Shown: positions 3,288 to 43,836 of the stretch, piece by piece
Numbering within the stretch: position 1 is the first letter of the stretch
How the letters are laid out: each line of letters starts with the position of its first letter
NCBI GenBank assembly: GCA_022925895.1
Contig: JAKSYS010000493.1
Location: 1-48,392, forward strand
Source of the DNA: Fragilaria crotonensis
Lineage: Eukaryota > Bacillariophyta > Fragilariophyceae > Fragilariales > Fragilariaceae
Direction of reading: 5' to 3'
Length of the DNA: 48,392 nt
Notes under the pieces: generated by a model
Told to the model about the DNA's origin: nothing
What the model saw: only the letters and a program-made list of their open reading frames with translations
The model's database searches: none
Translations under genes and position numbers: made by a program

Positions 3288-3973
3288 GACGCCCGAGAAG
3301 AACTAGCGGCACAAATGGCCGAGCTAAGGCGAGTAAGAACGCAGACGGCACCCGCGCCTCCGAGAAAGCCAACGAAGGCGATTCGGATGACACCGACGGC
3401 TGGTCGGATACCCATGGCTGAAACCAACCGTGCCCGTGCCTGCCTTCATTGCCACATCTATCATCGAGGAGTCCTATTACCGATCCAAAAGATTAAGCCT
3501 TGTTGATAATCAGAGCGATTGAGGAGAGGGCCAACGAACGGGCGACGACTCTCGCTAAAATGGCATCGGACGTCCCCAGCTGGGTGATTGGCATCGCCAT
3601 CAACAACAGACGGACATCAGGGCCCACCCAATGAGGCATCGGGATATCCACAGGCGGCACCTCACCGCGAAGGCGCCAAGCATCATTCAGATGGACGATC
3701 ACATGAGAATGCCAGGCCCAGCAGAGAACACCATTAGGAATCATTAAAACCTCTTGGAGCAACAGGCAACAAACGCCACCTCCTTGACGCCACCCCAGGG
3801 GCCTTAGACAGGGTTTGACTCCTCGTTCCCTCCATTGGCAAAGGGAAGAGACGCCCAAGGCAGGGTCCCGACTCACATGGTCCAGTCATTTGCATACTTG
3901 CAGACCGTCGGCAATGTTGCATACTTTCTGAACCACATCCACCATTTTCTCCACAACATGAAAGGGGGTGTGT

Positions 3974-4063
3974 CATTCCTTGCCAGCGCTTTGGACGGGC
4001 CTGGAGCATGCAGACATCAGGACCACATCATTCCTTGCCAGCGCCTCGGACAGGCCTGGCGCG
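3974..4063. repeat. Imperfect tandem duplication, period 55 bp
   Basis: A segment starting CATTCCTTGCCAGCGC at 3974 recurs at 4029 and is followed in both copies by a GGAC-GGCCTGG motif. A few substitutions separate the copies. No coding role is seen. Confidence 0.65.
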
Positions 4064-5569
4064 TACAGTCTTTTTGGGTGCGGGTCTCAGACGCTTGCCC
4101 ATTCCACTGCAATGGCCCTGTGAAAAATGTCAGTCAATCACGCAAGTGGCGCAGATAAAACTTAAGACAATGTCCAGAACCAGTGCACCAGGGTTCTCGG
4201 AGAAGGACATCAAGAGCATGACAAAACTCAATTCCACCTTCCTGCTGGACTTTCATGAAATTGCCTGACTGCTCAAAAACATTATTGGGGTCTTGCTGCT
4301 CCAGTTTCTTGGCCCCCAGTTGTTCCAGCTGCTCAGGAACATGATGGACAAATGATGCGTGGAATTGATTCTTGACACAGGTGCTGGTGGGGTCAAATCT
4401 TGTGACGCTCCACCAGCTAGCGCACGAGGACAGCGTGGCCGCGTGCCGGCTCGGATGCTTTCATCAAATAACGTATGCAGCAGTCAGTACTTCTTCATCC
4501 TGTGTGCATGGGTCAAACACAAGCATGGAATCATCCCAACCTTGCTTGAGTTCAGGTCCACCAGCCAGGAATTGGGGGATGGGGCCTTCGTTTTTCCAGC
4601 CTGAAACTTGTTGAAAGACAGACTTGGATGCGGGAGCGACACGACGAAGGCGGAAACGCCAACTGCTGTAACAGGAGGCAGCTCACGCTTTGGGCGACGC
4701 GGACAGCAGCCAGACACAGTCATCAACCCACAACAGTACTTTTTCCAAAAAACACAACACAAATGATAACTGGCAGATGTTCCTCACCAACCACGAACGA
4801 AGCAGTCCGATCCCAAACATGCTGTGCTTCGGCTGTCCACTGAACGGAAAGTGCGTCAACAAGAGCTGCTTCTTGAGCGCCTTGCATGTGTCGTCCTTCT
4901 TTCATTGTCAAGCCTTCGTATTGGTCATATGACTATGACTCAACACTCAACCTTTCTTCAATTCCACAACCGGCAACAACTCAGGTCTAATTTGCGTTTC
5001 AAACCGCAACGCCTGTGCCGCAGGAAGCAGCGACGGTTGTTGCTGCCGCCACTTGGCATCGAATGCGCCCACACGCCCACCTCCACCAAACATCTGCAAT
5101 GTCGTGCCAACGCCCGCGCTTGCACCTTGCGTTTTGCACCAGCCAACTATCGCCGGACCGGGATCACGCAGCTCGGGAGCTGCTCTCAACAACGGTCTCA
5201 CATCGCCCGCTCCGACCAGCCCTCAGGTGCTTTGCTGCACTTTCGGTTAGTACACTTCACTGGCCCCGCTGAATATCGACTTGCCTTTCCCACGCCTTTA
5301 CAAACCACTCCTCGCCGACGCCCTCCCTAGCATCCTAAACGCCCCCAAACTAACGACATGCCAGACTGAGTACAGGTTTGAATATACTTCTGAGACGCCA
5401 GCCCACAAGATCCTTGCTGTCATTTCACGTCACTCGCTCAATCTGCCTACTTGTAGGCGCAGCCATCAGGGCTCAAGCAACCTTTCAGCGCAAAGACGCC
5501 CAGATCCGAATTTTGCTCGCTCGAACTCCTTGCGCCACTCTCTCCGCGCATCTTCTCTGGCTCCAGTTT

Positions 5570-10041: not shown

Positions 10042-12432
10042 ATGGACACAACCAGCAAACGAGCCGAGCTGCAACGGTTGATACAAAGGTATGCTAACAC
10101 CGAAATGGACGAGGATAGTTGCAGCTATATTGCCTCAGTTTTGGAGGATGAAGAAGATGACATTGAAGCTGTTGTTGCCACATGCTTTCAAGGTCAAGCT
10201 GCGATTGACCTGGCAAGGGAGGTTCGAGATTTACTGTCTGGAGAATCCTCGAAGGCGGTCGACAATCTAACATGCTCGCGAGCTATGGCACCTATCCTGT
10301 CGACCAATGGTGACTGCACAGACGACGAAACCAATTCGGACGAGTCAAACCAACTGTCACCAAAAGCAAATGCACGCAGAAGTCGAGCAGAGGCCAAGCG
10401 ACATGCAAGGATGGAAAAGAAAAAAGGAAAGGCCAGGCAAAAAGAGAACGACTTTGTTGATGACGACGTTTCAGCATGGAATGAAAGACTATCAGAAGGA
10501 AAGGCTTGGGGAGGACGAGGGCATGGTGGACGAGGTGTTCGAGGTGATGTCAATACAGCGAGCAACATTCATCTATCAAATGTTACCCTTCAATTTGCGG
10601 GGAATGAGCTGCTGCAAGGCTCTACCATTCAAATCAACGGAGGTCACCGCTATGGCTTGGTAGGTCGTAATGGGTGCGGAAAATCTACACTGCTTCAACG
10701 ACTCGCAGCCCATGCCATTCCTGGTATGCCTCATGACCTGCGCATTGTGCTTGTCAAGCAGCAAATCGAAGGTGGAGATGAAACTGCCCTGCAATCCCTG
10801 ATAAGCGCAGATCGCGACAGGATTGCACTCTTAGAAGAGCAAGCAAACTTAGAAAGAAAGATGGAATCAACAAACGATCTTGACGAAATCGTTACTCGAC
10901 TTGCTGCCATTGCTAGTGAATTAGACATGATGGATGCCGAAGGAGCTGAAGAGAGAGCCAAGGATATTCTCTCGGGTTTGCAGTTCTCAGAGGATATGAT
11001 GCACAGTCCGACAAAGAACCTTTCGGGAGGTTGGAGAATGCGTTTGGCATTGGCACAGGCGCTGTACTTGCCGAGTGACTTGCTGCTCCTCGATGAGCCG
11101 ACGAATCATTTGGATCTGCACGCACTCGACTGGCTGAGCACGTATCTGCGAAACAGTAGCCATACAATCATTTTGGTATCCCACGACAGGGCCTTCTTGG
11201 ATATATGCACCGATATCATTACCTTTGATCAAAAGCGACTCAAGTACCATCCTGGGAACTACTCAGAGTTTACGCGTTGTCAGCAGGAAAAGACCGCCCG
11301 TCAAACCCAGATATTGGACGCTTCGGAGCGTCAGAGGTCGAAGGCCATGGAGTTCGTAAGGAAGCAAGAAGCTGCTGCGAACAAAAAGAATGCCGATCCT
11401 AACAAGCAGCGACAGGCTAAGATGATCAAAGAAAAGAAGCTGGACCGTATCGGTAACTTCCGCGAGGACGGAAAGAAGTATAAGAATTTTTCCCTAGCCG
11501 AGTTGTCAGAAAAGGCCATTCGACTTGCGGAGAAGGTTGTCATTGAGGTCGACGAACCTGTGATCCGAATGCAGTTTCCAGATCCGACATGGAGCTTTGG
11601 TGTCACACAAGGAAGCAGTTTGATCAGACTGGAAAACGTTAGTTTCGGATTCGTCCCCAAGGCCACCCCATTGCTGACAGGCGTCACACTCAATATCGAG
11701 CGTGGGAGCAAGATCTCGGTTGTCGGCAGAAATGGAGCGGGGAAATCCACGCTACTCAAATTGCTCACGGGCGAGATCGACCCAATGGATAGTACGTATT
11801 CGTTCAGAGGTGAAATCTGGCGCCATCCAACCCTTCGCATAGGACATGTTACCCAGTATTCCGTGGAGAATCTTCAGGAGTTTGCCGACATGACTACGGT
11901 CGAATACGCTGAGAAATTTCTAGACACCGGAAAGGCGTCGTCGAAGGTTATCAAGAGTGCCTCCGGCAATGTTCGCCAATATCTTGGACGTTTTGGACTC
12001 GGTGGAACACATTCTCATCGAGTAATCAGAAGCTTGTCGGGAGGTGAACGAATGAGACTCTGCTTTGCTACCGTCTTGGCCGAAGAACCGCACCTACTTG
12101 TGCTCGACGAGCCTACCAACCATTTGGATATTGAGACATTGGATGCTCTAAGCAGTGCTCTTCGTGCGTACCAAGGAGCTGTTGTGATCGTTAGTCACAA
12201 TCAGGAATTCTTGAGTGGATTTTGCAAGGAATTGTGGGTGGTCGAGGATGGCGGCGTCGATGTCCGCCATCAAGATGGTGGCAGTTTCGATGCCTTATTC
12301 TCCGCTTATCGGAAGGGTGGTTCAGCGGACTCGGAAGGGCGCAGGAATAAACGACAACAGAACACGGCTTTGGCCAAAGTGGCAACTCAGCTTCGCTCGG
12401 GAACAAAACAAGGGACAGGCTTCATTCCTTAG
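10042..12432 (+). CDS. ABC-F family ATPase, GCN20/ABCF3-like
   Basis: A soluble twin-ABC ATPase of the ABC-F family, 796 residues in one uninterrupted frame. Residues 1-65 form an acidic N-terminal segment (SCSYIASVLED, EAVVATCFQG) resembling that of GCN20/ABCF3. Residues 100-175 are a charged, Arg/Gly-rich linker. Domain 1 has Walker A GRNGCGKST at about 208-216, signature LSGGW at 327 and Walker B DEPTNHLDL. Domain 2 has Walker A GRNGAGKST at 562-570, signature LSGGE at 665 and DEPTNHLDI. A Lys-rich inter-domain linker lies between them. No transmembrane segment is seen, as expected for the family. Known members act on ribosomes; GCN20 works with GCN1 in activating GCN2 during amino-acid starvation. 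The ATG at 10042 gives a normal length. The gene is intact and converges on PEX6. Assignment to ABCF3/GCN20 rather than another ABCF rests on the N-terminus. Confidence 0.93.
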   Translation: MDTTSKRAELQRLIQRYANTEMDEDSCSYIASVLEDEEDDIEAVVATCFQGQAAIDLAREVRDLLSGESSKAVDNLTCSRAMAPILSTNGDCTDDETNSDESNQLSPKANARRSRAEAKRHARMEKKKGKARQKENDFVDDDVSAWNERLSEGKAWGGRGHGGRGVRGDVNTASNIHLSNVTLQFAGNELLQGSTIQINGGHRYGLVGRNGCGKSTLLQRLAAHAIPGMPHDLRIVLVKQQIEGGDETALQSLISADRDRIALLEEQANLERKMESTNDLDEIVTRLAAIASELDMMDAEGAEERAKDILSGLQFSEDMMHSPTKNLSGGWRMRLALAQALYLPSDLLLLDEPTNHLDLHALDWLSTYLRNSSHTIILVSHDRAFLDICTDIITFDQKRLKYHPGNYSEFTRCQQEKTARQTQILDASERQRSKAMEFVRKQEAAANKKNADPNKQRQAKMIKEKKLDRIGNFREDGKKYKNFSLAELSEKAIRLAEKVVIEVDEPVIRMQFPDPTWSFGVTQGSSLIRLENVSFGFVPKATPLLTGVTLNIERGSKISVVGRNGAGKSTLLKLLTGEIDPMDSTYSFRGEIWRHPTLRIGHVTQYSVENLQEFADMTTVEYAEKFLDTGKASSKVIKSASGNVRQYLGRFGLGGTHSHRVIRSLSGGERMRLCFATVLAEEPHLLVLDEPTNHLDIETLDALSSALRAYQGAVVIVSHNQEFLSGFCKELWVVEDGGVDVRHQDGGSFDALFSAYRKGGSADSEGRRNKRQQNTALAKVATQLRSGTKQGTGFIP

Positions 12433-12518: not shown

Positions 12519-14732
12519 CTAAATCACGTTACTACTGAACTCTTCTTGGAGGCGCTGATACCTACGTAGGTCCTGAGGGGTGACACTCGCAACAACTTCT
12601 TCAGAGGCGGCTATCAAGTCAGCTGCTGTCACCACGGGAATCATATCGTCACCCCAATTTTCCAAGACGTCGTCTAAAGAGAGAAATGGAGTCACTTGGT
12701 GTTCAGCAGCCTCGCATAATCGCTTCAAACTCCTCATTAAGGCACCGCTGGCGACGGCCGCAAAGTCGGCGCCACTCAGATGAGGTGGTAGTTCGTTCAC
12801 AACTGCAAGGGAGATCTGCATCGGATCACCGTCTTTTTCTAATTTAAACTTCCGAATCAACGCTGACAAAACTTGAGCCCGGTCCTCTTTGTTTGACGGC
12901 AATCCCAAGTAAACTTTTCGATCTAATCTCCCTGGCCGGAGCAACGAAGGATCCAGTAAGTCTGGTCGATTCGTAGCGCCTATCAAAAACACAGTGTCGT
13001 TGCGATCCAACTCAGTCAGCAAGGTAGCCACCACTCGCTCCATAACGCCTCCTCCATCACCCAAGCCGCCGCGACGAGGAGCCAATGAATCTAACTCATC
13101 GAAGAAGAGAACTGCAGCTTTGCTCATTACGGCCGCATCACGAGCACTGGCAAAGATTTGGCGAACATTCGCCTCACTTTCTCCCACGTACGAGCCCAGA
13201 AGTTCTGGACCCTTGACTGAAAAGAAGGGCAAACCACATTCCGTTGCAACGGCCTTCGCCACGAGAGTCTTTCCAGTTCCAGGTGGGCCGTACAAGAGGA
13301 TGCCTGATCTGCGCGTGCCTTGAAACAGTTCTGGGTGCTGCAGTGGTAGCTCAATGGCATCCATGATCTCCTTCCGAACGTGGCTAAGTCCACCGATGTC
13401 TTGCCAGTGAACGTCCGGGATCTGGGAGGAGGTTTGCGAGACAGGCTTGACTGCTTGCCCAAGAAATGCAGCGACACTATGCTTGCTGTTGAGCCACAGT
13501 CGCTTCCACTTGCGAATGTCCAGGGCGGTGTGCCCAACGAGGTGTGGCAAGGCATTGGCGAATGTAGCATCATCATTCCACAAGTATCGAGCGTACGCTT
13601 CGTCTGGCTCACTTATCGTTACGGCAGCAAAAACAAGATTCTCCAGCAAAGGCCCGGCCGCGAGGGGCGCCCGCGAGGACAAGACAACAATGACAGGAGG
13701 AACAAAACCTGATACAGCCTTTGGAATCGTCCTGAGTCTGAGAGCAGCCATTAACATCGTCCAGAGCCGCATCTCGAGCATATGACGTAGGGGTTCGTCA
13801 TCTTTTGGCAACTCGTCGTCGAGGTCGACAAGGTGCAAGACACAAGGTGCACATTCGTGAGCTTGGTCTAGAGCTGCCTGGCATCCTGCAAGTTTGTCCT
13901 GAGTCGACCCGGTTGTTACAGTCCGTCCGCGAAAATGAGCAAAGGCCGCCAGTCCTCTGACCTTTAAATATCGTCTACCTAAAGAATGTGATGCAGCTTC
14001 TACGCACCTGTCAGCATCATTTGACATACTGCCAATCACATGCAGAATTCTATGCGACGCAGGGACATCGAGTGGTGTTTGCAAGGCCCCGATGACTCTG
14101 CACAGAGTCGGATGAGTTGATTCCTGAAATGGCTTATTCAATAAATAATGCTTGGTTCGGTCCATTGGTGGTAATCTCTGTGTAGGGACATGGGAAGGGC
14201 AGGATTCCAACTTCCACTCAGTTTGGGATGTTGTCCAACATGGACCAGGAGTCAATACTTTATAGACAAAGACTTGATTATCTAGCAGCACCGATACAAG
14301 AACTCCTAATGATACAAGACGGTCGACGCTTCCAATCGGAGGGCATTCAATAGTTGTTCTCTCCTGAAGAACGCTGTTCATGACGGGTCTCCCCAAGAGT
14401 GCGATAGATACACTTGAAGCGAAGGCGACGTTCGCCGTGTGCGCTTGAATGTCGCAGGTCGACGCCCCAAAATAGAACATAGTTGGAGGAGTCTTTATCA
14501 GTGTTGTGGATGTGATCTCGTCGTCGATACAAAGCTTGGCTGGTATCCGAAAACCATTTCGAGACAACCAAACTACATCACCATGTTTGATCGACAGTCG
14601 AATGAGCAAGTCTGCGGACCCGTAGACGGTCGATTCCTCTCGCATATCCTGAAATAGTATGATTGTTACCTCTACCTTCGGAGCATTCAGGAGTCGACAA
14701 AACGAAGAAGCTCGAAGCAGGCGACGCGTCAT
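12519..14732 (-). CDS. PEX6: Peroxisomal AAA+ ATPase peroxin 6
   Basis: PEX6 pairs with PEX1 to form the hexameric motor that pulls ubiquitinated PEX5 out of the peroxisomal membrane. This 737-residue protein carries one good AAA domain at its C-terminus (about 441-700). It has WQDIGGLSHV, Walker A GPPGTGKT at 482-489, pore region VKGPELLGSYVGESE, Walker B FFDELDSLAP at 543-552, sensor GATNRPDLLDP near 585, and arginine finger region LRPGRLDR. The region before it (about 230-430) looks like the degenerate D1 of PEX6, without Walker A, and the last residues (VTPQDLRRYQRLQEEF) match the PEX6 C-terminal helix pattern. The GESEANVRQIF box and the closing helix favour PEX6 over CDC48 or PEX1. It is shorter than typical PEX6 (about 950-1000), so the N-domain is reduced or an upstream exon is missed. 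It is intact, and its 3' end faces the ABCF gene across 86 bp. Confidence 0.9.
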   Translation of the reverse strand: MTRRLLRASSFCRLLNAPKVEVTIILFQDMREESTVYGSADLLIRLSIKHGDVVWLSRNGFRIPAKLCIDDEITSTTLIKTPPTMFYFGASTCDIQAHTANVAFASSVSIALLGRPVMNSVLQERTTIECPPIGSVDRLVSLGVLVSVLLDNQVFVYKVLTPGPCWTTSQTEWKLESCPSHVPTQRLPPMDRTKHYLLNKPFQESTHPTLCRVIGALQTPLDVPASHRILHVIGSMSNDADRCVEAASHSLGRRYLKVRGLAAFAHFRGRTVTTGSTQDKLAGCQAALDQAHECAPCVLHLVDLDDELPKDDEPLRHMLEMRLWTMLMAALRLRTIPKAVSGFVPPVIVVLSSRAPLAAGPLLENLVFAAVTISEPDEAYARYLWNDDATFANALPHLVGHTALDIRKWKRLWLNSKHSVAAFLGQAVKPVSQTSSQIPDVHWQDIGGLSHVRKEIMDAIELPLQHPELFQGTRRSGILLYGPPGTGKTLVAKAVATECGLPFFSVKGPELLGSYVGESEANVRQIFASARDAAVMSKAAVLFFDELDSLAPRRGGLGDGGGVMERVVATLLTELDRNDTVFLIGATNRPDLLDPSLLRPGRLDRKVYLGLPSNKEDRAQVLSALIRKFKLEKDGDPMQISLAVVNELPPHLSGADFAAVASGALMRSLKRLCEAAEHQVTPFLSLDDVLENWGDDMIPVVTAADLIAASEEVVASVTPQDLRRYQRLQEEFSSNVI

Positions 14733-15318: not shown

Positions 15319-15361
15319 GTACCCCAGAGCCCAGAGTGGTCATACTCCGTAACAGACGCAC
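15319..15361 (+). repeat. Direct repeat copy 1 (partner at 15704-15740)
   Basis: This copy begins AGTACCCCAGAG and ends TGGTCATACTCCGTAACAGA plus CGCAC. It differs from copy 2 by an extra 7-nt CCCAGAG in tandem. Apart from that insertion the two copies are identical over about 36 nt. They bracket the ankyrin fragment. Confidence 0.85.
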
Positions 15362-15487
15362 GCACTGACGCAACTACGTATATGCAAATCTTACCGATAT
15401 CGCTTACGGAGTACTCCAGTATGCATGTATGACATATACTCCGAGTATGAGACCACTGTACTGCGCATTGCGCACAGTGAAAAAATT

Positions 15488-15622
15488 CAGACAGGCCATG
15501 ATGAGAGCCGTGTTACCATTTTCATCATCTTGTTGGGTATTCAAACTTGCTCCTCGTTGCAAAAGTTGGCAAACCCTGGCCAGATTCCCCTCTCCGGCGT
15601 ATTGAATCAATTGTTGATTCAT
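15488..15622 (-). pseudogene. Ankyrin-repeat gene fragment
   Basis: From an ATG at 15622 the minus strand reads an ankyrin-like start: NQQLIQYAGEGNLARVCQLL, then RGASLNTQQDDENGNTALIMA. This matches the ankyrin consensus (G-x-T-A-L-x-x-A) and the typical first helix of an ankyrin protein. Past about 15488 the frame stays open to 15404, but the peptide no longer looks like ankyrin and runs into palindromic spacer. Either this is the first exon of a gene whose remainder is not here, or a truncated scrap; no good GT donor is visible at the break, so I prefer a fragment. It lies between two identical direct repeats. Confidence 0.55.
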
Positions 15623-15703
15623 GTACAGTAAGTACTCTGGACACTTTCGTCTGGAGTCTGGAGTCTGGAGTGTTTCTACGCCGGATCTTGCTGGATCCAG
15701 TAT

Positions 15704-15740
15704 AGTACCCCAGAGTGGTCATACTCCGTAACAGACGCAC
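15704..15740 (+). repeat. Direct repeat copy 2 (partner at 15319-15361)
   Basis: This 37-nt copy runs from AGTACCCCAGAGTGGTC to ACAGACGCAC and lacks the internal CCCAGAG duplication of copy 1. The GC-rich retrotransposon starts within some tens of bases downstream, so this copy could mark its 5' boundary or an older insertion or duplication event. A neighbouring triple TCTGGAG tandem lies at about 15651-15671. Confidence 0.85.
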
Positions 15741-18700
15741 ACACCACATTGAGGTTGTCGTCACGCCAAACCGACGAGAACTTTGTTGTGCAGTGTCATG
15801 ACTGCGAATGGTGCGGGAACGAGCAACCGCCGAGGAACGACAGCGAACAGAGCTGTAACGGCGGTGATCGACGGTGTCGATCATCGCCGCCTCGAGTTGC
15901 CAACCGCGCGCCAGGAAATTCAAAACTCCTTGACGCATAGCGCGCTCGTACCTCACGGTACAACTCGCGAGCGTCCGTCCTCTGTCCGTCAGCAGCCGCT
16001 GAATGACGACTCGCACGTCGATGCAGACGATGGTTTTACTCATGAGCCACCGCGGCGTCGACAGCGCCAAGTCCTTCAGCTCTGCTGCGACTGCTCGAGA
16101 TCGTCGACCTGTGCCCTGGCACGGCCGACAGCTCGCTCACAGGCTTGTCCCTGTCGAGTGGCGAACAAGCGCTGCACTTCGTGCACTTGCTTCAACCACT
16201 GCCAGAACAAGCGAGCGCCGCTGCCACCGCCGAACACCACGACGCTGCGATGCTTCTTCACCAGTCCCAGCGCACCTGCGCCCACAGAGCCCACCCCAGC
16301 AATCGAATCCGCCCCACCAGCTGCCGTTCCGCCCGCCGCGACCGAGACCCCCCCAGCGCTTTCCCCGACATCCCGACACCACACCGCAGCGACGAACGAC
16401 GTCGACGGCGACGTCGGCATGACTCCGGAGCCACTGGATCGGGCCCGCACTCCGCCGCCCGACGACGACACTGATGACCCCTCCCTGCCCGCCCCGACGG
16501 AAACAGCGACGGCCGCCATCGCTGGCGAGGACCCGATTCCAGCTTGTCCCCCCGTGACAGAGGCAGCGGCCACCAATAGGGCCAACGCCCCTGCGCGGGA
16601 AGATCCAGAGGCGACTCCCGGACCGGCGATAACGCCGGACGAGGGAGCCAATCTGCCCGGCTACTTCGTAACCGCGGCGGATCGCCTACTGGATGCCGCC
16701 CTCGGAGATCACGTCCACGACAACGCTGGGACGCATCTCCAGGGCGGCTTCTCCGATGACGCGCTATGGCAGCGCCGATGGAGGAGGATGGCACAGATCG
16801 CCACCACCCGCTACCCTGCCCCCGCTGGTAGAGTGGGGCGGTGCTTCCTTGCCATCCTCACCTCCGAGTTCCGGGGCGTACGCGAACGCCGCTGGAACTC
16901 GGAACGCCCCCTGGTGTTCGCCGCAACAGTGTTGCAGACGACACAAGGGGTTCGTCGGGCCAAGGACATTCGTTCGCGCCTCGCGCAACGAATGGACTTG
17001 TGGGACCAAGGCCACTTCAAGGCCTTGGTCGACGACGCTGAGGGGGAAGTCCTTTCTCGACAACCCTCCTCCCGTCCACCCGACGAAGAGGCGCGCGCTC
17101 GCTCCTTCAATGCACGCGTCCTCTCCGGCAGACTTCGCTCGGCCGTGCGAACACTCACCGACCGCTCCGGCGGCGGCGTCCGCCAGCCTGACGACCTCTG
17201 CTCGAAGGCAGGCCGACCGGTCTGGCAGGTGCTTCAAGAGAAGCGCCCGGCCCTTCGGGACCCGACCTCTGTTGGAGATGAGGATGGGGCCTTCGAGCCC
17301 TATCCCGATCTCCCAGCCCCAGTCCCTGTGTGTGTCACACAGGATGACGTGGAGGCCATCTCCTCCCGGCTCGCCGGCGCCGCCGGACCCGGCGGCACCG
17401 ACGCCGTCGACCTCGCCAACTGGCTCCTTCGCTTCGGACGAGAGTCCGAAGCACTGCGGGAGGAGATGGCGGCCTGGACCAACTGGCTCGCCAACACCTC
17501 GCCGCCCTGGGCGGCCTACCGCGCCATGATGGCAAATCGCCTGGTTGCGCTCGACAAGCAACCAGGCACTCGCCCGATTGGCATTGGCGAGGTGTACCGT
17601 CGCCTGTGGGCCAAATGCCTCCTGAAGGCAATCGGATCACAGGCGACGGCGGCATGCGGCAACTTCAACCTCTGTGCAGGCCTCCAGGCCGGCATCGAGG
17701 GCACCGTCCACGCCGTGCGCGACGTCTTTGCCGACCCCTCGCTGATCCCTGCTCCGCCCCCAGACGATCACGACGCTGACGACCCCCTTACGCAGGCGAT
17801 TGCGGATCCGCCTGCCGCGCCGCCTCCCATCCCCCTCGCCGATATGACGCTGGATGAGGCCTTCACGGCCATCGCCGATGACGCGGGCCTCTCCTCGGCC
17901 GAAGCCTCGGCCGTCCTTTTGGTCGACGCGACCAACGGCTTCAACGAGCTCGGCCGCAAGGCCATGCTCTGGACCGTGCGCCACCGTTGGGCCAACGGCG
18001 CCCGGTTCAGCTTCAACTGCTACCGGCACTCGGCCCAACTCCTCCTGCGTCGCCGCGGCGGAGACTGCGAGATCATTCTCTCGCGAGGGGGTCACGCAAG
18101 GCGACCCCCTCTCCATGGTGCTCTATGGACTCGCGCTGACGCCGCTCGCCGAGACCATACGAGCGCGCGTCCCCACGGTCGTCCAACCATGGTACGCCGA
18201 CGATGCGGCCATGGCCGACCCGGTCGCCGACATCGCTGAGGCACAGCGCCTCCTCCTTGAACTTGGCCCGCGCCGGGGGTACTTCCCCGAGCCGGACAAG
18301 TCCATCCTCATCGCCCCGCTCGCCACCCCATCCAACGCCCTAGCGTCCCTCGCGGAATTCAACTTCCGACACGAGGAGGGGCACCGATACCTGGGTGGCT
18401 TCGTGGGATCGGGCGCAGCCGAGGCGTCCTGGGTGGACCCTCAAGTCCAGCAATGGATCCAGGGCGTCCACAGCCTCGCGGCGGCTGCGCGGAGATACCC
18501 ACAGACCGCCTACGCCGGTCTGTCGCAGTCCCTCCAGTCGGAGTGGCAGTACCTCCAGCGCGTGACGCCTGACATCGCGCCTGCCTTCGCACCGCTGGAG
18601 GCCGCACTCGCGACTGTCTTCTTGCCGGCTCTCCTTGACGCTACGATTGAGGAGGTCGCCGCTCTCCGCCCCCTCCTCGCTCTCCCTCTACGCATGGGGG

Positions 18701-20836: not shown

Positions 20837-20841
20837 CAGGA
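20837..20841 (+). repeat. Target-site duplication, left copy (CAGGA)
   Basis: CAGGA directly precedes the first base of the 5' LTR and is repeated directly after the 3' LTR at 26400-26404. A 5-bp duplication is standard for Copia integrases and fixes both element boundaries. Confidence 0.92.
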
Positions 20842-20981
20842 TGTTGTTATCCCCGGGGAACCCGGAAGGTCATTGAGACTGCGTCACGCAATGTCCCACT
20901 ATGACTGAGTCCAGGGCCACCCAAATATCTAGCTCATAATTTATGTAGCTCATCGTTTGAACGACAAGCACCATCTCAACA
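20842..20981 (+). repeat. 5' LTR of the Copia element
   Basis: This 140-bp repeat begins TGTTGTTATCC and ends CCATCTCAACA, with the short terminal inverted repeat TGTTG/CAACA. It is identical to the 3' LTR except at 20876. The segment CTCATAATTTATG near 20933-20945 is the most promoter-like part, with the predicted RNA start near 20940. Confidence 0.95.
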
Positions 20982-20993
20982 GAGCTACATAAA
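20982..20993 (+). promoter_or_regulatory. Putative primer-binding site, self-complementary to the LTR
   Basis: GAGCTACATAAA begins at the first base after the 5' LTR, the position of a primer-binding site. It is the perfect reverse complement of TTTATGTAGCTC at 20940-20951 inside the LTR, and the match stops exactly at both ends. It does not begin with the TGG expected for pairing to the 3' CCA of a tRNA. The arrangement is like the self-priming site of the fission-yeast element Tf1, where the RNA's own 5' end primes minus-strand synthesis. That function here is inference; a packaging hairpin is an alternative. Confidence 0.5.
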
Positions 20994-21104
20994 CCTTCCC
21001 AAACGGCGTCGATAACGAACGCCGTCTTTCTACGGATAGTCATCTATACTATCTGCGTTCGTACCATAGTCCTAGCTGCGTCGACTTAGTCCACAGTTCA
21101 CGAC

Positions 21105-22173
21105 ATGGCATCCATGTCGAAATTCACGTTTCCTCATGAGTGTCTCACGCCCATCAGCGGCAAGCCAACAAACACCACGTTGCAGTTACTGCAACGCCAA
21201 CGTTACCAACGCTCGTTCCGTTCCATCTGCCCGTGGCGGCAGCGCCTACGGTCATCTTGCCATGCTCCTCAGCGATGCCGATTACCCGCTCGCGCTGGGG
21301 CCACCCTTCATTGTCCCCAGCCATCCCGGCCCACCGCCACCTCCCATCGGCACTTCCGCCGCTCTTACCGTCGCCATGCGAACGTACGCAGACGCCTTGG
21401 CTGATGTTGCCCTCTACAATAACCTCAGTGCTGCGTTGACAGCGCAGATCCTCACCGCTGTCAACGCGTCCTTTCTCAGTGCTCTCGAAGACCCTGACTT
21501 TGGATTTAGCGACGTCTCCCCTCGTGCCATGCTCACCCATCTGCGCGCCGAATACGGGACCCTGACCCCTGAAGAACTTGAGAAGAACCGAGCGGCCTTG
21601 TCCGAACCATGGAATTTTGACGATCCCATCGAGGATCTGTGGGCAAAAATTGCAAATATCCAGCGCGTTGCCACATTCGGTAACGTACCAATTGCGGACA
21701 TCACAATCATCACGCTCACGTTAGCAATGATAGAAGAAACCGGTCTTCTCGCAACCACAACCGAAAAGTTTCGCCTACGTCCCTTCGATGAATGGACAGT
21801 GGCTTTATTCCGCTCCGAGTTCCAACTCGGCAACAAGGAACGCATTCGCCGTCTCACAGCCGGCGATGCTGGGTTTCACGGCGCACACAATGTCATCGGT
21901 ACCCCCACGCCCGCCGTCGCTGCTGCCGCTGCCATCACGCCCACCGCCCCCACACATCCACCGGCGTCACGCCACGTCACCGTCGAAGGCGGCAAGATGT
22001 ATTATTGCTGGACTCACGGGCTCAGCCCGCATCGCATGCACACGTCCATCACATGCTTGCATAAAGCAGAAGGTCACCAAGATGACGCCACCGCGTTTCG
22101 CATGAAGGGTGGGAACAACACTATCTCATCCGGTAGACCGCGTCAACTCGCCGCCGCAGCCACAACCAACTGA
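21105..22173 (+). CDS. Copia Gag (one frameshift near 21203)
   Basis: Gag is the capsid and RNA-binding protein of the element. The likely start is ATG 21105, whose product reads MASMSKFTFPHECLTPISGK and PTNTTLQLLQRQ. At about 21200-21205 the conserved Gag pattern continues one frame over (NARSVPSARGG, AYGHLAML), so about two bases are missing or one is extra. An ATG at 21136 opens the downstream frame directly, but its first 20 residues do not fit the family. The body is helical and Ala-rich. The C-terminus has a zinc-knuckle-like set YYCWTHG, H, TSITC, EGH near 22003-22080. The frame ends with UGA at 22171-22173, and Pol continues in the same frame. Confidence 0.8.
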
Positions 22174-25100
22174 CGACGAGGGGAGCCTACTACCATAACC
22201 ACTCTAGCAACCACTATATCTCCGCCAATCGTTTCTAATGATACGGACGTTAGCTTCTCTACTGTGCACGTAGGTCCCCCCCCGACTCTCATTCCTCCCG
22301 ATGCGCTCGCTATCGCCGACAGTGGTAGCACCGCCCATTTCTGTACCGTATCCGCCGCCGTCATCAACAAACGCCCAACCACACGCCCGATCGGCATTGC
22401 AAATCCCAACGGCACTATCATGTACTCCACACATGAAGCTGAGCTTGATCTGCCCAGTCTCCCCATTGCAGCACGCCGCGTCCACATCGTTCCTGCTCTC
22501 CGAACCACGTCCCTATTGTCCATGGCCCAGCTCTGCGACGCCGGATGCACTGTCACGTTCGATGCCACCTCCGTTAGCGTACGCCGCAACAACCAAACCA
22601 TCCTAACCGGCGTTCGCACACCTGACACTGGTTTGTGGCATATGAGTCTGCTTCAATCGCCCCTCTCCCCCCACGTCGACACCGAATCGCCCGCAACAAC
22701 CCCAGAGCGCGACGACGTCCACTACAGTCACTCCGCCGTCCACTCGGCAACCCCCGAGGCACTCGTTGCTTTTGCACATGCAGCCCTCTTTTCCCCTGCA
22801 CTGTCCACGCTCAAACAGGCCATCGACAACGGTTTTCTACCTAATTTCTTAGGGCTCACCGCCACAGGATTACGCAAATACCCTCCTCTCTCGGTCGCCA
22901 TGATCAAAGGTCATCTCGACCAATCCAGGAAAAATCAACGATCCACCAAACCCGTGTCCCCCCCACCCGAACTCGAACCGACCGCGAGTGATACCGACGA
23001 CGCATTTCCTGCCAGTGACCCCGACAATGCACGAACGCATCAATGCTTCGCAGCCGTTTTCGAACCGGCCTCCGGACAAATCCATTCTGACCAGACCGGC
23101 AAGTTCATTGTCGCTTCCAGTTCGGGAAACAACTACGTGCTGATCGTATACGACTATGACAGCAACAGCATCCTCGTCGAACCCATACGCAGTCGCTCCG
23201 GACCGTGTATCCTCGCCGCGTTTAAAATCATCCACGCGCGCTTAGTCACCGCCGGTTTGCGACCACAGCTCCACCGTTTGGACAACGAATGTTCCAGTGC
23301 CCTCAAAACGTTCTTACGCGACGCCGAGATCGACTACCAACTCGTACCGCCGCGTCTCCACCGCCGCAACGCCGCCGAACGTGCGATTCGCACGTTCAAA
23401 AACCACTTCATTGCGGGCTTATGCAGCGTTGACAAGAACTTTCCGCTGCATCTCTGGGACAAACTTCTTCCGCAAGCTGAACTCACACTCAACTTGCTGC
23501 GCGGCTCCCGACTCAATCCCAAACTATCCGCCCACGCTCAAATGAATGGACACTTTGATTGTAATCGAACGCCATTGGCACCCCCAGGCATTCGCGTACT
23601 TGTTCACATCAAGCCAAGCGAACGCACCACGTGGTCACCATACGGCGCGGATGGCTGGTACACCGGTCCAGCTCTGGAATCCTACGGGTGCTACACCGTA
23701 TGGCTATGGGACACACGTGCGACGCGTATTTGCGATACGCTGACATGGTTCCCCACCAAAACCACGATGCCCTTGGCGTCCTCCAACGACCTCATACTTG
23801 CAGGTGTACAGGACATCATTCATGCCTTGCAGCACCCGTCTCCTGGATCCCCTCTTGCCCCTCTGACTGATAGTCATCACAATACCTTGGTCCAATTAAC
23901 CAAGATTCTCACTGCTGTCGCCAGCGACACGCGCGACCCCGAACCCACGCCGCCCCCTGCCGCCACACCACCCACTGCGTTACCAACCACCGTGGTGCAG
24001 CTCCCACATTCCCCGGATGCCTCTCTGAGGGTGGACGACGTCCCCGTCACCACCGTGGTACCAACGCCAGTCTCGGCCCTTCCCGATCCCACACGTCTGA
24101 GGGTGCCTCCGCCAGTTCTCTCCGTTAAAGCTGTCACCTTCGCTCCCGTCCCAGCACCACCCGGCGCGACCTTCGCAAACAGCACGGGTGCCATCGGCAA
24201 ACAACGTCGCCGCAACCACCGACGACAGCGCCAGCAGAACACCACTGTCGCACCACCCCCAGCCAAAACCGTTCATCCTCGCAAGCTCAACGCTGCCCAC
24301 ACGTCCCCTCGTATCGTCGCATCGCACCACCACGGCACACGCTCCAAGCACTTGCAGCACGTGGCCGCGTGCGGCCGCACGAGCATTGCTCCTCAATGAT
24401 GCACGTGCCCCACAGTCCCCCTTCGCCACGGCCACGTTGCCACCGCAACATTTTGCTTTACACGGACACGCGATCAATCCCGACACCGGAAAAATCGCTG
24501 AATACCGTGAACTCAGCCAATGTAGCGACGGTCCCATCTGGCAGGCATCGAACGCCGAAGAAATCGGACGCCTCGCACAAGGTTTTGGTACCATCAAAGG
24601 CACCAACACCATGTTTTTCATCCACCCATCGGCCATGCCCGCAGGTCGCAAAGCCACTTACCTGCGTGTTGTTTCCGCCCTTCGCCCAGAGAAAGCCAAC
24701 CCATACCGTATTCGTTGGACTGTTGGCGGCGACAAAGTTGAGTATCCCTTTGACGTCAGCACCAAGACCGCTGACCTCACAACTGCAAAACTGTTGGTCA
24801 ATAGTGTTGTCTCCACGCCTAACGCCAAGTTTATGACCGCCGACCTCAAAGACTTCTACCTCGGCACACCAATGTCCCGTTACGAATACATGCGCGTGCC
24901 CATTTGGATGCTCCCTGATGCCATCATTGAGCAATACAACCTCACGCCCCTCTTTCACAACGGCTTCGTCTACGTCGAAATACGCCGCGGCATGTACGGC
25001 CTGCCACAAGCCGGCCGCCTCGCCAACGATCAGCTCATCGCTTTTCTTGCACCCCACGGCTACAAGCCCTGTCCGTTAACGCCTGGTCTTTGGAAACACA

Positions 25101-26357
25101 ACACCCGTGATATTGTTTTCAGCCTTGTCGTCGACGACTTTGGCATTCGCTACACCAACCGCGCGGATGCTGATCATCTGCTCGCCACTCTTCAAACCTC
25201 GTACGAGGTCAGCATTGATTGGACCGGAGCACGGTACTGCGGTTTGACCCTCAAGTGGGACTACATCAATCGCACGTGTGACATGTCCATGCCTGGATAT
25301 ATTGAACGCGCCTTGCAACGTTTCCAGCATGTCAACATGCACAAAGCCGAACATTCACCGCATCCGTGGCAACGTCCCAACTATGGCGCCACGACACAGT
25401 TTGCGTCCGTGCCCGATTCTTCGCCAGCTCTTGACGCCGCCGACAAAACCCACATCCTTGAGGTCCTCGGCACCCTTCTTTTCTATGCACGAGCGATCGA
25501 TTCCACGATGTTAACCGCCATTGGTGAACTCGCCACCGAGCAATCGCAAGCCACGAAAACCACCCTCGACAAACTCGCTCAACTGTTGAACTATTGTGCG
25601 TCTCACCCCGACGCCACCGTACGTTTCACGGCAAGCGACATGATTCTCGCCGTCGAAAGCGACGCGTCTTATTTATCCGTCGTCAAGGGTCGATCTCGCG
25701 CTGCCGGGTACTTCTTTTTAACCAACAAACCCGTTGCGCGCAACGGCCCTTATAAACCGAACGGAGCCGTCCACGTGCTATGTCACATCATGCGCGAAGT
25801 TCTCTCGAGCGCCGCTGAAGCGGAATTAGGAGCCTTGTTTCACAACGGTAAAGAGGCGTGCCCCCTTCGCATTGCCCTTGAAGAGATGGGACATCCTCAA
25901 CCTGCCACGCCCATGGCGACCGACAACAACACCGCAAGCGGCATTGCCACCGACACCGTCAAACAAAAACGGTCGAAAGCAATCGACATGCGTTTCTATT
26001 GGATACGCGACCGTGTTCGCCAAGGCCAATTTCAAATCTACTGGAGCAAAAGGTAAGACAAATCGTGCCGATTACTTCTCGAAACACCATCCGGCCTCGC
26101 ATCATCAGGCCATACGTTCCACCTACTTGTACTCGCCTACAAATCCGGCGCGGAACTATTTTGATTGTCTCTCCGACACGGCCCCCGCACCGTCTACAAC
26201 GGTGCCCATACCCAGTGCCAACTTGCTCACTAGTCATTCTATGGCCCCTGGTGAGGGTGTGTTGTTATCCCCGGGGAACCCGGAAGGTCATTGTGACTGC
26301 GTCACGCAATGTCCCACTATGACTGAGTCCAGGGCCACCCAAATATCTAGCTCATAA
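22174..26357 (+). pseudogene. Copia Pol: protease, integrase, reverse transcriptase, RNase H (frameshifts)
   Basis: Open directly after the Gag UGA. The protease has ADSGSTAHF with catalytic Asp at 22318. The integrase has its zinc-like region near 22760-22950 (FAHAAL, KGHLDQSR); the acidic triad is D 23089 (HSDQTGKF), D 23281 (LDNECS) and E 23377 (NAAERAIRTF). The frame shifts in the Pro-rich linker at about 24330-24390. RT follows (TADLKDFYLG near 24834, YGLPQAGRLA near 24996) with catalytic VVDD at 25127-25138. RNase H has AVESDAS near 25650 and SSAAEAELGAL near 25806. At the A4 run 26048-26051 the frame would continue if one A were absent (GKTNRADYFSKHHP), and then stays open into the 3' LTR, stopping at 26355-26357. 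Without that change it stops at 26056. Confidence 0.88.
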
Positions 26358-26399
26358 TTTATGTAGCTCATCGTTTGAACGACAAGCACCATCTCAACA
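26260..26399 (+). repeat. 3' LTR of the Copia element
   Basis: This 140-bp copy has one mismatch to the 5' LTR (T at 26294). It is followed by CAGGA and then, 36 bp after the LTR end, by the ATG of the next gene. Bases before it (TGGTGAGGGTG, 26249-26259) are purine-rich and could serve as the polypurine tract, though the tract is weak. Confidence 0.95.
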
Positions 26400-26404
26400 C
26401 AGGA
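26400..26404 (+). repeat. Target-site duplication, right copy (CAGGA)
   Basis: Matches 20837-20841 exactly and closes the Copia element. Confidence 0.92.
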
Positions 26405-27969: not shown

Positions 27970-29796
27970 CTAGTAGGTAGCCTCTCGTCGATTTGCCTCC
28001 ACCAGCTGTTTGTGTTGATGCAATTTTTCAGCCTCAATTTCCGTCATGCAAGGGGTCAGAGTCCAAACTTCGATGTTCAATATGGAAAACTCATTCTTGT
28101 GTGAAAGACAAGGATTGCAGAAGGTAGCGCAAGAATACGATTCTCCTCCTTGAAGATCGCCGTCAAGAAGCAACCCAATGCCCTTGGCTTCCCCATCACC
28201 GAACGGGGAACTAACATTCCAATCCCCAACCCCAACCGCGACCATGTGCGACGAACAATATTGGACCATATCGTCCGCACCGGTGTAAGGATAGACTTCA
28301 AGGGTATCTTTTTTTCTGAACAGGAACGATTGTCCGTTTCCAAACCAACGATCTTGACGACCCCATTCCGTCGAAGTGAATGCGCCAAAGATCAGATTTT
28401 CGTCACCTTTGGCTTGAATAACGATAAGACACGATTGGGATCCTTGCATTTTGTGAAGCAGTGTCTTGAGGGAGCAGCCGTCTCTCTCCAAGCTGAATTT
28501 AAGCCAAAAATTTTGTTCAGATATGGCATACGGAAGAAAACCTCGAAGCGCCTCCATCAACCTGACTTTCAACAAACGATGTTGTATGGAATCGGCGCCG
28601 AGAACTGGAAACGTCGAATCTTTCAGATCGTCATCGTCGTAGTCCTCGTCATTGATCAGTGGGGGAGCCTCTTCTTGATTCATTGGCGATTGGGTGATCT
28701 CGGCTTTCGCACGTTTCTTGGCACTGCGGTTCGCACGGCTGCCGAGTGTGGCCTCTACAGCCCCACCAGACGCAGAGGAGTTGACCGAGTAAACATCAAT
28801 GTATAGATCCGACTTGCGATCATCATTCGATGTCGATGATTGAGACCCTTTGTACTTTAAGTCATGAAGAGAGAAAGGGTCAGCTCCCAATCGCTGATTA
28901 GAATCTAGGCGCTCCATGGTTGACTCAATTTCTAAAATACGCTCATCGATTGTCGATTCATCGTCGCCTTTTGGCTTCAGAAGGTCTCGCAGAAAGGCTT
29001 TCTCAGCAGCTGAAAGCGACTCTTGCTTCTGAATAATGCGTCGATGTAGCAATTGCACTGCCGCCAAATACCGATGTCGAGCCGCCGGATCGACGTTTCC
29101 TTTGATTTCGAGATCAGTTTCAAGCTGCCATTCTATAGTTGGTGAGGAATACGAGGTCTTGGTTGCATTTCCAGTGTTTTTTCCCACTTGGTTTTCTTTC
29201 TTGTCCCTCGACTCCATCAAAACTTTCGTGGCTGAATGTATCGCTGCCGCAACCCTGCTTGGCGAAGCCTGCTTACAGAGGTTCTTCTGCGATTTGTGCA
29301 CATCTTCCTGATGTCGTTTTCGTCGTCTATCAGTCCTTCGTTTGTCATGATCCTCGCGCTCTGCAGCGGCGGCCTCTAGCTTGGTCAATATCCTCAGTTT
29401 TTCATGTGCTTCCTGTTGCAGTTCCTCTATCTCGTTTTGAGAACGTTGGGACTCGTCTAACAAATCTTCTAAAATCTCGACGCTGCCTTCTGCATTCTTC
29501 GCCAATGACATCTTCTGATCGCCTTCTCGCATCTGTATTTCAGGAACTGGGCCAAGGTCCGGGATGTACGAATCGTCCAATGGAGTCGTCACAAGTCGAA
29601 TGTCATCTTCAGACATGCTTTTGAGACCTTTTTCCATCGATCGTTCTAGCGATCGTTCTCTCATCCAAATTACAGCCTGCAAGTCCTCATCGAAATTATC
29701 CCCTCGACTGGCTGCTCTCTCGACATTATCACTCGGTTTCGAATGAGCCATCTTGTCGACAGCTCGATCTGACCGACAGCACCTGAAGAGTCCCAT
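27970..29796 (-). CDS. TLDc-domain protein with probable N-terminal acylation
   Basis: This 608-residue protein begins at the ATG at 29796; the frame extends six codons upstream only through a non-ATG codon. It begins MGLFRCCRSD, a good N-myristoylation start (Gly2) with Cys6 and Cys7 placed for palmitoylation, so it probably sits on a membrane. About residues 90-180 are charged and helical, probably coiled coil (LLDESQRSQNEIEELQQEAH). A low-complexity acidic region follows (NDEDYDDDDLKD). The C-terminal ~180 residues are a TLDc domain: LKVRLMEALRGFLP, FSLERDGCSLKTL, LIVIQAKGDENLIFGAFTS, SFLFRKKDTLEVYPYTG, GIGLLLDGDLQGGESYSCAT, NEFSILNIEVW. TLDc proteins of animals and fungi (OXR1, NCOA7, TBC1D24) act in oxidative stress and bind the V-ATPase. 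The molecular role here is not known. One intact frame, no intron. Confidence 0.88.
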   Translation of the reverse strand: MGLFRCCRSDRAVDKMAHSKPSDNVERAASRGDNFDEDLQAVIWMRERSLERSMEKGLKSMSEDDIRLVTTPLDDSYIPDLGPVPEIQMREGDQKMSLAKNAEGSVEILEDLLDESQRSQNEIEELQQEAHEKLRILTKLEAAAAEREDHDKRRTDRRRKRHQEDVHKSQKNLCKQASPSRVAAAIHSATKVLMESRDKKENQVGKNTGNATKTSYSSPTIEWQLETDLEIKGNVDPAARHRYLAAVQLLHRRIIQKQESLSAAEKAFLRDLLKPKGDDESTIDERILEIESTMERLDSNQRLGADPFSLHDLKYKGSQSSTSNDDRKSDLYIDVYSVNSSASGGAVEATLGSRANRSAKKRAKAEITQSPMNQEEAPPLINDEDYDDDDLKDSTFPVLGADSIQHRLLKVRLMEALRGFLPYAISEQNFWLKFSLERDGCSLKTLLHKMQGSQSCLIVIQAKGDENLIFGAFTSTEWGRQDRWFGNGQSFLFRKKDTLEVYPYTGADDMVQYCSSHMVAVGVGDWNVSSPFGDGEAKGIGLLLDGDLQGGESYSCATFCNPCLSHKNEFSILNIEVWTLTPCMTEIEAEKLHQHKQLVEANRREATY

Positions 29797-30314
29797 TTTG
29801 TGGTTCGATTTCAACGTATCAGTTCGAGGAGCGAGGAGTGGTCACGACTAACGATGAGCCTGGCTCACGTTCAAGAAGGATGACAGAGGACAGAGGTCGG
29901 AGTGGATTCCACGGCGCACGTTTCGACTCAGGACGAGATTGTCGCAATATAACAGTGCAACGTGAAACCCGTGAACTCGATTGCTCGAGAGGCGAGCATT
30001 GGGCATTTTCAGTCGCCGGGTTGCGGGACTTAGATTAATGCTGCACTTGTGACTAAGTTAAATGCTAGACCATATTCTGTATTCTACTCGTTTTTGAATA
30101 TATATATTATATACAAATGTGTTGGAGTCTGAGAGCATAATACTTATACGCTACTAGCTAGTAGAGTAGTAGTCTACTAAAGTACAACTTCTAAACGCAA
30201 GAGCAACGTATGATACGCACCGACTCGACTTACATTCTCTCATATATAATAAAGACGCATGTTCTAATATAAAATATATTATGCATTTCTTGTACTACTT
30301 CGTACTTGCATATT

Positions 30315-30496: not shown

Positions 30497-30745
30497 TCTT
30501 CTACATACAGTGTATGATATATGTTTAGCTTGGAACTGCAGAAACGTCTTCCGACTTCACCACTTCCGAAATAGAACAAGGAAGATACATGAAACGTGAG
30601 AAGTATCTTTGGAACGAGGTGATAGCGTCCATGTACGAACAAATGATATGAGCAGCAGCGAACTATCAGGTACTCCAGTCAACAGCTATCACCTACACAT
30701 TGATCTTTCCTGCAACACCTACCAGATTGTTCCTCGATATTGACA

Positions 30746-32122
30746 ATGTGGTCGGCTGTGGCTCGTTCCCTGGATTCATACTTCTTGATTACGGACCGAC
30801 AGTCAACTATCGGTACCGAGGTCAGGGCTGGAACAGCGAGCTTTCTCACTCTCAGTTATCTGTTGTTAGTCAATCCTCAAATAATGGCTCAAGCTGGAGT
30901 TCCTCATGACGATGCCGTGTTCGCGACTGCAGTGTCCGCAGCGCTTTCTTGCTTCATCATTGGCTTTGGTGGCAATCTGCCCTTCGGTTGTGCGCCGGGT
31001 CTAGGGCTGAGCGCATACCTAACGTTCGGATTGGTGCAGGCTGAACTTTGTACACTTCCCGAAGCCTTGACAGCCTGTTGGTGGTCTGGAGTCCTTGTCT
31101 TGCTTGTCTCACTTTCTGGCTTGGCACGACTTTTGATGAAAACTGTTCCGCACGCTATCAAGTTGGCGATTGTGGTTGGAATGGGATTGCTTATTGCGAT
31201 GATTGGAATGGTAAGCGTCGGTCTTATTGTGGCAAACCCCAAGACGTTGGTCGAGCTTGGTGATGTCTTTAACGACAGAACACTGCAGCTCTTCTTGGTG
31301 GGGATTCTCATGCTGGCCTCCCTGCTCTATCATGATATCAAGGGTGCAATTCTGATTGGAATCGCATTTCTGACCCTTGTTGACTGGACCATGAACAATT
31401 CCTGGCCATCAGCGGTGGCTGAAGTTCCTAATTTTCATCCAAATGACTACCTTTCGAATCTTCTGGTCATTTTTGATCCCGCCAAAGCATCTACGCTTCT
31501 CGTTGCTGTTGGCGCGTTCGTTCTCATTTGTATCTTCGACATCTCAGGTGTTCTTTACGGTCTGGCAACATTAGGAGGCCTTCAAAACCCAGAAACTGAC
31601 GAAATTCCTGGCTCCTTGTGGGCTTTTATCGCTTCATCTGTTGGTACTATTGTAGCTTCTTCCTGCGGATCTACTCCCATTATTGTCTGTGTCGAGTGTG
31701 CCTCCGGCGTTCGCGAAGGAGGCCGAACTGGATTAACTGCGGTCGTCATGGGAATCTACTTCACCTCTTCGATCTTCTTAGCACCCCTGTTCGGTGCAGT
31801 CCCCGATCTTGCCACAGCGCCTGTCTTGGTTATGGTGGGTGTCATGATGATGCCAGAAGCCGCGAAAATTGAATGGGGCAACATGAACGATGCCCTTCCA
31901 GCGTTCTTGACAATCATCCTCATGCCCCTCACTTACAGCATTACGAATGGAATGATATTCGGTCTGCTGACTTCCATAGGGTTCTACTTCACGACTGGCC
32001 AGTTCTGGATCGATGCCCAGACCATTCCAACTTGCAAAGTGGAGAGTAATGCGACACCCGAGACTGAGAACTTTTTGCCAGCCAATGATAAGGTTTCAAC
32101 TCCTGAATATGGAACCGTTTAG
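30746..32122 (+). CDS. Purine (guanine/hypoxanthine/adenine) permease, AzgA-type NCS2 family
   Basis: An integral membrane permease of 458 residues from ATG 30746. It would move purine bases across a membrane, probably the plasma membrane, with protons. The start LDSYFLITDRQSTIGTEVRA, then TASFLTLSYLLLVNPQIMA, is characteristic of AzgA-like members. Further family marks are PFGCAPGLGLSAYLTFGL in the first half, the GLIVANPKTLVELGD loop, and ASSCGSTPIIVCVECASGVR with EGGRTGLTAVV in the second half. About 12-14 hydrophobic segments are evident, followed by a hydrophilic tail of about 35 residues. Length fits the family. In algae such genes often respond to nitrogen supply, but nothing in the sequence shows that here. 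One intact frame; the N-terminus is compact and no signal peptide is seen. Confidence 0.92.
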   Translation: MWSAVARSLDSYFLITDRQSTIGTEVRAGTASFLTLSYLLLVNPQIMAQAGVPHDDAVFATAVSAALSCFIIGFGGNLPFGCAPGLGLSAYLTFGLVQAELCTLPEALTACWWSGVLVLLVSLSGLARLLMKTVPHAIKLAIVVGMGLLIAMIGMVSVGLIVANPKTLVELGDVFNDRTLQLFLVGILMLASLLYHDIKGAILIGIAFLTLVDWTMNNSWPSAVAEVPNFHPNDYLSNLLVIFDPAKASTLLVAVGAFVLICIFDISGVLYGLATLGGLQNPETDEIPGSLWAFIASSVGTIVASSCGSTPIIVCVECASGVREGGRTGLTAVVMGIYFTSSIFLAPLFGAVPDLATAPVLVMVGVMMMPEAAKIEWGNMNDALPAFLTIILMPLTYSITNGMIFGLLTSIGFYFTTGQFWIDAQTIPTCKVESNATPETENFLPANDKVSTPEYGTV

Positions 32123-42900: not shown

Positions 42901-43836
42901 GGTATTGGCCGTGGGCAAGACGATTATTCAAGAGTTGACTTATGAAGCTCGCATTCTGGTCAACGAGAGTGCTGGGGCACGACGCCGAAGGTGCTCGACT
43001 ATAAACAGCCTTCAGTGATGCGAATCCGTCCGTCCAGTTCCCTTACTCTTATACTTCGAGTATGAACATGCATGTACTTAGAGTAACCATTTTGTCCACA
43101 CATACCTGATCCGCCCATGATGAAGATTGGCGATTATAATACTGTGCTTGCCAATAGAACTGTTGTCAGCCTGATGCACACGCCAAGAGAAGTTTAAAGG
43201 AGAAGTGAACTCTTGGCACACGACTATCAAGTAGGTCTGTCTTGGTTTCCCGATTGGAAGAGTTGATAATCTTTTGGATCGGATGTTCGATGTCAGCTCA
43301 AGGGCAGATGAACAGGTTCCGGCATGACCGTGAGGTTACCTCGTGTGGCTCGGAACCACCGAGGCGCCACAGGGGCAACACAAGAGCTACATATCGGCTT
43401 TTGGTCCCACTTTGGTACTTGTACGGTCACAGGGGAGGTACATGTACCCGATACCATGGGTGAGATTTGCGTCTGTATGCGTACCAGTAAAAGGTTTCTA
43501 ATGAGTTTGAATGGCTCCCAGGCCACCAGGTTTATCCCTATTTCTAAACGACGAGGAACTCGAGAAGTACTCATAACCCATCCAATACCCTTCATCCGAA
43601 ACAAGAAAAATGGGCATACAGAAATCTGATGTGATGGGTGAACCGAAACTCTCAGTAACGTTGCAGTTTACGCTGAAACTTGTAGTTGCTTCAACTAGCC
43701 ATCAGCGATCATCGATCATAGCTGACTCTTACCTCATCCAATCCATCACTGCTAATCTGAAAAAATCTACCCAGCAAGAACAAGGGTCCCACAAAACAAA
43801 CGAACGAAACATCTGACAACATCGGATACTTGGATC
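42901..43836. promoter_or_regulatory. Divergent promoter region between CBF5 and the acidic protein gene
   Basis: The flanking genes diverge, so both promoters lie in this 936-bp interval. It has no convincing gene. A small word repeat (TATACTTCGAGTATGAACATG, part-palindromic, near 43050) is visible. No TATA box or known motif could be assigned. Confidence 0.45.

Follow-up and report, generated by a model that had tools for sequence, protein, structure and literature searches.

A Copia-type retrotransposon whose putative primer-binding site complements its own LTR: a candidate for Tf1-like self-priming

The window, which is the whole 48,392-nt stretch of DNA analyzed here, carries an LTR retrotransposon between genes assigned with the use of Pfam. 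The flanking genes encode an ABC transporter ATPase (10042-12432), an AAA ATPase (12519-14732), a TLDc protein (27970-29814), a xanthine/uracil permease (30740-32122), and a dyskerin-like pseudouridine synthase (41383-42918). Two pairs of direct repeats were also observed in the window: 41-nt copies within 3973-4068 (85% alike, 55 bp from start to start) and 36-nt copies within 15330-15744 (97% alike, 379 bp from start to start). The retrotransposon lies on the plus strand, as do all its features given below, and measures 5558 bp from LTR to LTR. Its 5′ LTR (20842-20981) is 140 bp long and is identical to the 3′ LTR (26260-26399) at 139 of 140 positions, the single mismatch being located at 20876. 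Both LTRs start with TG and end with CA, and the insertion is flanked by a 5-bp target-site duplication, CAGGA, at 20837-20841 and 26400-26404. The paired direct repeats with TG...CA ends, the target-site duplication and the internal reverse transcriptase (RT) identify it as an LTR retrotransposon. A putative polypurine tract, GGTGAGGGTG (26250-26259), was read from the sequence directly adjoining the 3′ LTR. Because the LTR pair differs at only one position, the data suggest that the element was inserted recently and transposed with its present primer-binding site (PBS).

Three open reading frames were assigned to the element. The gag-like frame (21076-22170) gave no Pfam match. It is followed in the same frame by a protease-like and integrase-like part (22174-24396), in which the motifs DSGS (22318), SDQTG (23086), and AAERA (23371) were recognized by eye, and the two are split by an in-frame TGA at 22171-22173. 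This codon may reflect decay or, alternatively, a gag-pol junction of the readthrough type. The third frame (24101-26053) encodes RT, with VVDDFG at 25127, and RNase H, whose D, E, D, D motifs were found by eye at 25652-26011. The integrase-like and RT parts are in different frames and overlap at 24101-24396; given the near-identical LTRs, this frame change may stem from a recent lesion, from an error in sequencing or from a programmed shift. Presumably, a further frame change lies near the gag start, as a gag motif suggests. The coding frames of the present copy are thus interrupted, by the TGA and by the integrase/RT frame change. In the integrase-like D, D, E motif (23086-23385), the last two acids are separated by 31 residues; the usual integrase spacing is 35 residues.

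The RT frame matched the Pfam family RVT_2 (E = 6.8e-5, residues 264-383) with 23 bits, which is below the curated cut-off of 31.6; RVT_2 was the sole RT family matched, and we take this to indicate a Copia-type RT despite the sub-threshold score. The motifs read by eye suggest the domain order protease, integrase, RT, and RNase H, as in Copia, with Pfam giving a match for RT and none for the protease, integrase or RNase H domains. A PDB search of the element proteins returned no match, and structure models predicted from single sequences for the integrase part and the RT/RNase H part were unusable (mean pLDDT of 36.8 and 31.8, respectively). Membership of the Tf1/sushi lineage was rejected, as the RT matches only RVT_2, which is Copia-type, and no chromodomain was reported in the three element proteins scanned with Pfam. 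The proteins presumably resemble those of the diatom CoDi elements, a label that sequence motifs make plausible, and the element is probably of diatom origin. CoDi elements are likewise Ty1/copia, and their lengths of 5182-8062 bp include the 5558 bp measured here; TG/CA ends, as in this element, occur in 23 of 26 CoDi families, whereas the shortest reported CoDi LTR is 153 bp long, compared with 140 bp here (PMC2806351).

Relatives were searched for in viral and prokaryotic collections with exact patterns, and the outcome says little about eukaryotic genomes. No relative was found in the viral contigs by the RT protein, the protease/integrase protein or an LTR 20-mer, nor by the exact patterns GMYGLPQAG, RYEYMR, AAERAI, VDDFGVKY, and DFYL. 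The scanned genome contigs gave none, and neither did plasmids and phages in a tblastn search with the RT protein only. Stretches that fit the peptide patterns were obtained in the viral RT scan (1), the viral protease/integrase scan (4), and the genome-contig scan (26); they encode no relative. The eight viral loci taken from the motif scans (L001-L008) were compared by tblastn with the gag, integrase, and RT proteins and rejected at a best E of 0.27. The complementarity described below is accordingly known from one element copy.

The 12 bases that directly follow the 5′ LTR, GAGCTACATAAA (20982-20993), form the putative PBS. The first-pass annotation had described them as the exact reverse complement of a 12-mer within the LTR, TTTATGTAGCTC (20940-20951), with pairing that ends sharply on both sides. 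Sequence comparison confirmed this: the LTR ends at 20981, and the match sets in at the very next base and stops after 12 pairs. The LTR 12-mer, our proposed self-primer, has a second copy in the 3′ LTR at 26358-26369, and neither 12-mer has any further exact copy in the window. For the last base of the LTR to be copied first, the end of a minus-strand primer has to lie opposite the base that directly follows the LTR. The geometry here is as priming requires, with 20951 paired to 20982 and 20981 as the next template base. Priming by a full tRNA needs TGG, the complement of the tRNA CCA, in the PBS. The annotated absence of such a site was also upheld, since in the region searched, up to 21150, the first TGG downstream of the LTR is located at 21106.

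None of 20,000 dinucleotide-shuffled LTRs gave an anchored match of at least 11 bases, and the longest match, of 10 bases, was seen once. In the window, anchored matches of at least 12 bases to the preceding 140 bases were present at 10 of 48,092 positions, which correspond to 7 separate places including the PBS; the match at each of the six others is equal to or longer than that at the PBS. The cautious chance figure for the LTR-end position is about 2e-4, and this is the figure to use because the LTR-end position singles out the site.

The LTR was scanned for initiator-like motifs with four patterns. In P. tricornutum, the initiator consensus is given as CAY+1A in FCP genes and, in generalized form, as TCAH+1W (PMC4686930). 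The sole CAYA in the LTR, CATA at 20935-20938, predicts an RNA start at 20937, which is 3 nt upstream of the helix start at 20940. The looser TCAHW occurs at 20870 and 20934, so that all the initiator-like matches in the LTR (20870 and 20934/20935) are situated upstream of 20940. The motif is common, and the chance that a CAYA falls no more than 5 bases from 20940 is about 8% (11 positions, 361 CAYA in 48,392). For this reason it lends only mild support to an RNA start near 20940, a reading that presupposes a diatom host. No TATA-like match was found in the LTR, and a sigma-70 promoter scan, not designed for eukaryotes, gave nothing.

Folding of the predicted leader RNA was analyzed for a start at 20940 or 20936 and for lengths of 196, 305, and 505 nt. 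Within the helix between LTR and PBS, the inner pairs were predicted with a probability of 0.98-1.0; for the two outermost A-U pairs, the value was 0.56-0.92 at the same three lengths. Stretches selected for their helix, 20940-20993 and 20940-21030, gave z scores of -4.85 and -5.67, and in neither case was any of 500 shuffles as stable. The helix would enclose a 30-nt U5 loop (20952-20981), which reverse transcriptase would copy first. The region behind the PBS (20994-21025) may pair with U5, e.g., 21000-21005 with 20954-20959, which is not significant, and a predicted hairpin at 21003-21025 would compete with this pairing. In the case of Tf1, a "pretzel" structure with two further duplexes is described (PMC10085805). 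When such extra duplexes were looked for here, the best duplex of U5 with downstream sequence reached -10.4 kcal/mol (P = 0.078), which is not significant.

The arrangement resembles that of Tf1 of Schizosaccharomyces pombe, in which the first 11 nt of the RNA pair with the PBS and the RNA is cut between nucleotides 11 and 12 (PMC7175516). In both elements, a short sequence at the RNA 5′ end, which in the present element is a presumed one, complements the site after the 5′ LTR, over 11 nt in Tf1 and 12 nt here. The two differ in class: Tf1 is a Ty3/gypsy chromovirus, whereas the present element has an RVT_2 RT preceded by protease-like and integrase-like motifs. We propose that, as in Tf1, minus-strand DNA synthesis in this Ty1/copia-type element is primed by the 5′ end of the element's RNA, and put the probability of this at roughly 70%. 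Transcription would begin at about 20937-20940, and the first bases of the RNA would fold back onto the PBS. RNase H would then cut after 20951, a position proposed by analogy with Tf1, and the freed 3′-OH would copy the LTR end (A20981) first, so that the LTR would terminate precisely. Transfer of the short U5/R DNA to the 3′ LTR copy would follow. Self-priming had already been put forward in the first-pass annotation, and the placement at the LTR end, the stability of the helix, the missing TGG, and the diatom initiator motif all favor it; what did not stand is the view that such priming is a feature of Tf1/Ty3-type elements. The RNase H motifs recognized by eye likewise speak for self-priming, and the interrupted coding frames of this copy speak against it.

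The strongest of the other explanations, although an unlikely one, is that the primer is a 5′ fragment of a tRNA whose end lies in the D arm, near position 13 (...TGTAGCTC), in which case the LTR 12-mer would have been captured or would match by coincidence. The first bases of the PBS are complementary to TAGCTC, which is found in tRNA D arms. Among five tRNAs from organisms other than the host, human Ala(AGC) pairs over 8 bases anchored at 20982, and human Ile(AAT) and yeast Phe pair over 6, all three matches ending at tRNA position 13. With about 45 tRNAs in a set, however, chance alone would produce an anchored match of 8 bases about 5% of the time (45 × 76/4^8), and no element is known to us to be primed by a tRNA fragment with its cut at position 13. 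ARAGORN (bacterial code) found no tRNA genes in the window, and Rfam at gathering scores gave no match. Small RNAs derived from tRNAs do exist in P. tricornutum (PMC4247016). We keep this explanation at low probability because the LTR matches all 12 bases at the same anchor.

Slightly less probable is that the relevant partner of the PBS is the identical 12-mer of the 3′ LTR (26358-26369), and that pairing between the PBS region and U3 circularizes or aligns the RNA while another primer is used. Contacts between the 5′ and 3′ parts of the RNA occur in Ty1 and Ty3, and if the RNA began downstream of 20951, only the 3′ copy could pair. Against this, the initiator-like motifs of the LTR sit upstream of 20940, and the complementary site is located exactly at the first position after the LTR, where a primer must sit, with no TGG before 21106. 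A chance inverted repeat with no role in priming is less probable again. The six other places of the window with an anchored match of at least 12 bases speak for it, but they are outweighed by the exact abutment on the LTR end, the result of the 20,000 shuffles, and the fact that no alternative primer site is visible. Least probable of all is priming by a half-tRNA, for which tRNA-Met or tRNA-Ile would be cleaved within the anticodon loop; this is predicted for the Ty1/copia lineages Osser, Bryco, part of Gymco-II, and Bianca (PMC6317226). At the anchor, the initiator tRNA-Met of yeast pairs over 4 bases and that of human over 3, neither being the tRNA of the host, and the match of human Ile falls in the D arm and not in the anticodon arm.

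Priming by the element's own RNA, the reading that we prefer, is not new for Ty1/copia elements. To our knowledge, the experimental account of own-RNA primers that replace tRNA comes mainly from Tf1. The association of self-priming with Tf1/Ty3-type elements, on which the first-pass annotation relied, is outdated: in a survey of plant elements, self-priming is predicted for 12% of those covered, the Ty1/copia TAR lineage among them, and an earlier proposal for the TAR families Houba and Osr-1 is cited (PMC6317226). TAR is similar to the present element in being Ty1/copia and predicted to self-prime. The origin is likely separate from that of TAR, because TAR is a green-plant lineage and the proteins here appear to be of diatom type, as judged from sequence motifs. 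The fungal Copia element GalEa also lacks a tRNA PBS and has a conserved hairpin site in its place; its hairpin is formed by two sequences behind the LTR, with no complementary U5 sequence found, whereas the complement in our element is within the LTR (PMC5445492).

In the literature searched, we found no report of self-priming in a diatom-type Copia lineage. The main text of the CoDi paper does not describe priming; neither "tRNA" nor "primer binding site" appears in it, and its single "PBS" denotes the buffer (PMC2806351). Diatoms and self-priming are treated in separate passages of PMC5445492 and PMC3601003, self-priming is mentioned in PMC2864245 and PMC6934838, and in PMC2206039 and PMC4659654 the term was seen only within the title of a reference. 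The new point would be self-priming in a diatom-type Copia lineage, the idea itself being already known. Whether diatom-type Copia elements gained self-priming independently of both the fungal/vertebrate Tf1/sushi elements and plant TAR, with the host initiator placing the 5′ end of the RNA at the self-primer, appears to us evenly balanced. If this is true, self-priming would have arisen at least three times and would have freed such elements from host tRNA. On the same sequence evidence, self-priming may instead be an old Copia trait, which would agree with the suggestion that the ancestors of LTR elements were hairpin-primed (PMC3601003). A Copia element that is short, was inserted recently and has a clean self-primer of 12 bp, probably in a transformable algal group, would make repeated evolution and the minimal RNA structure testable. 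The element is also of a type that primer-site finders restricted to tRNAs would miss.

The LTR contains, in addition, a pair of near-copies, AATATCTAGCTCAT and TTTATGTAGCTCAT, located at 20924-20953 and 16 bp apart. They are identical at 9 of 12 positions over the primer 12-mer and may represent a duplicated initiator-like motif.
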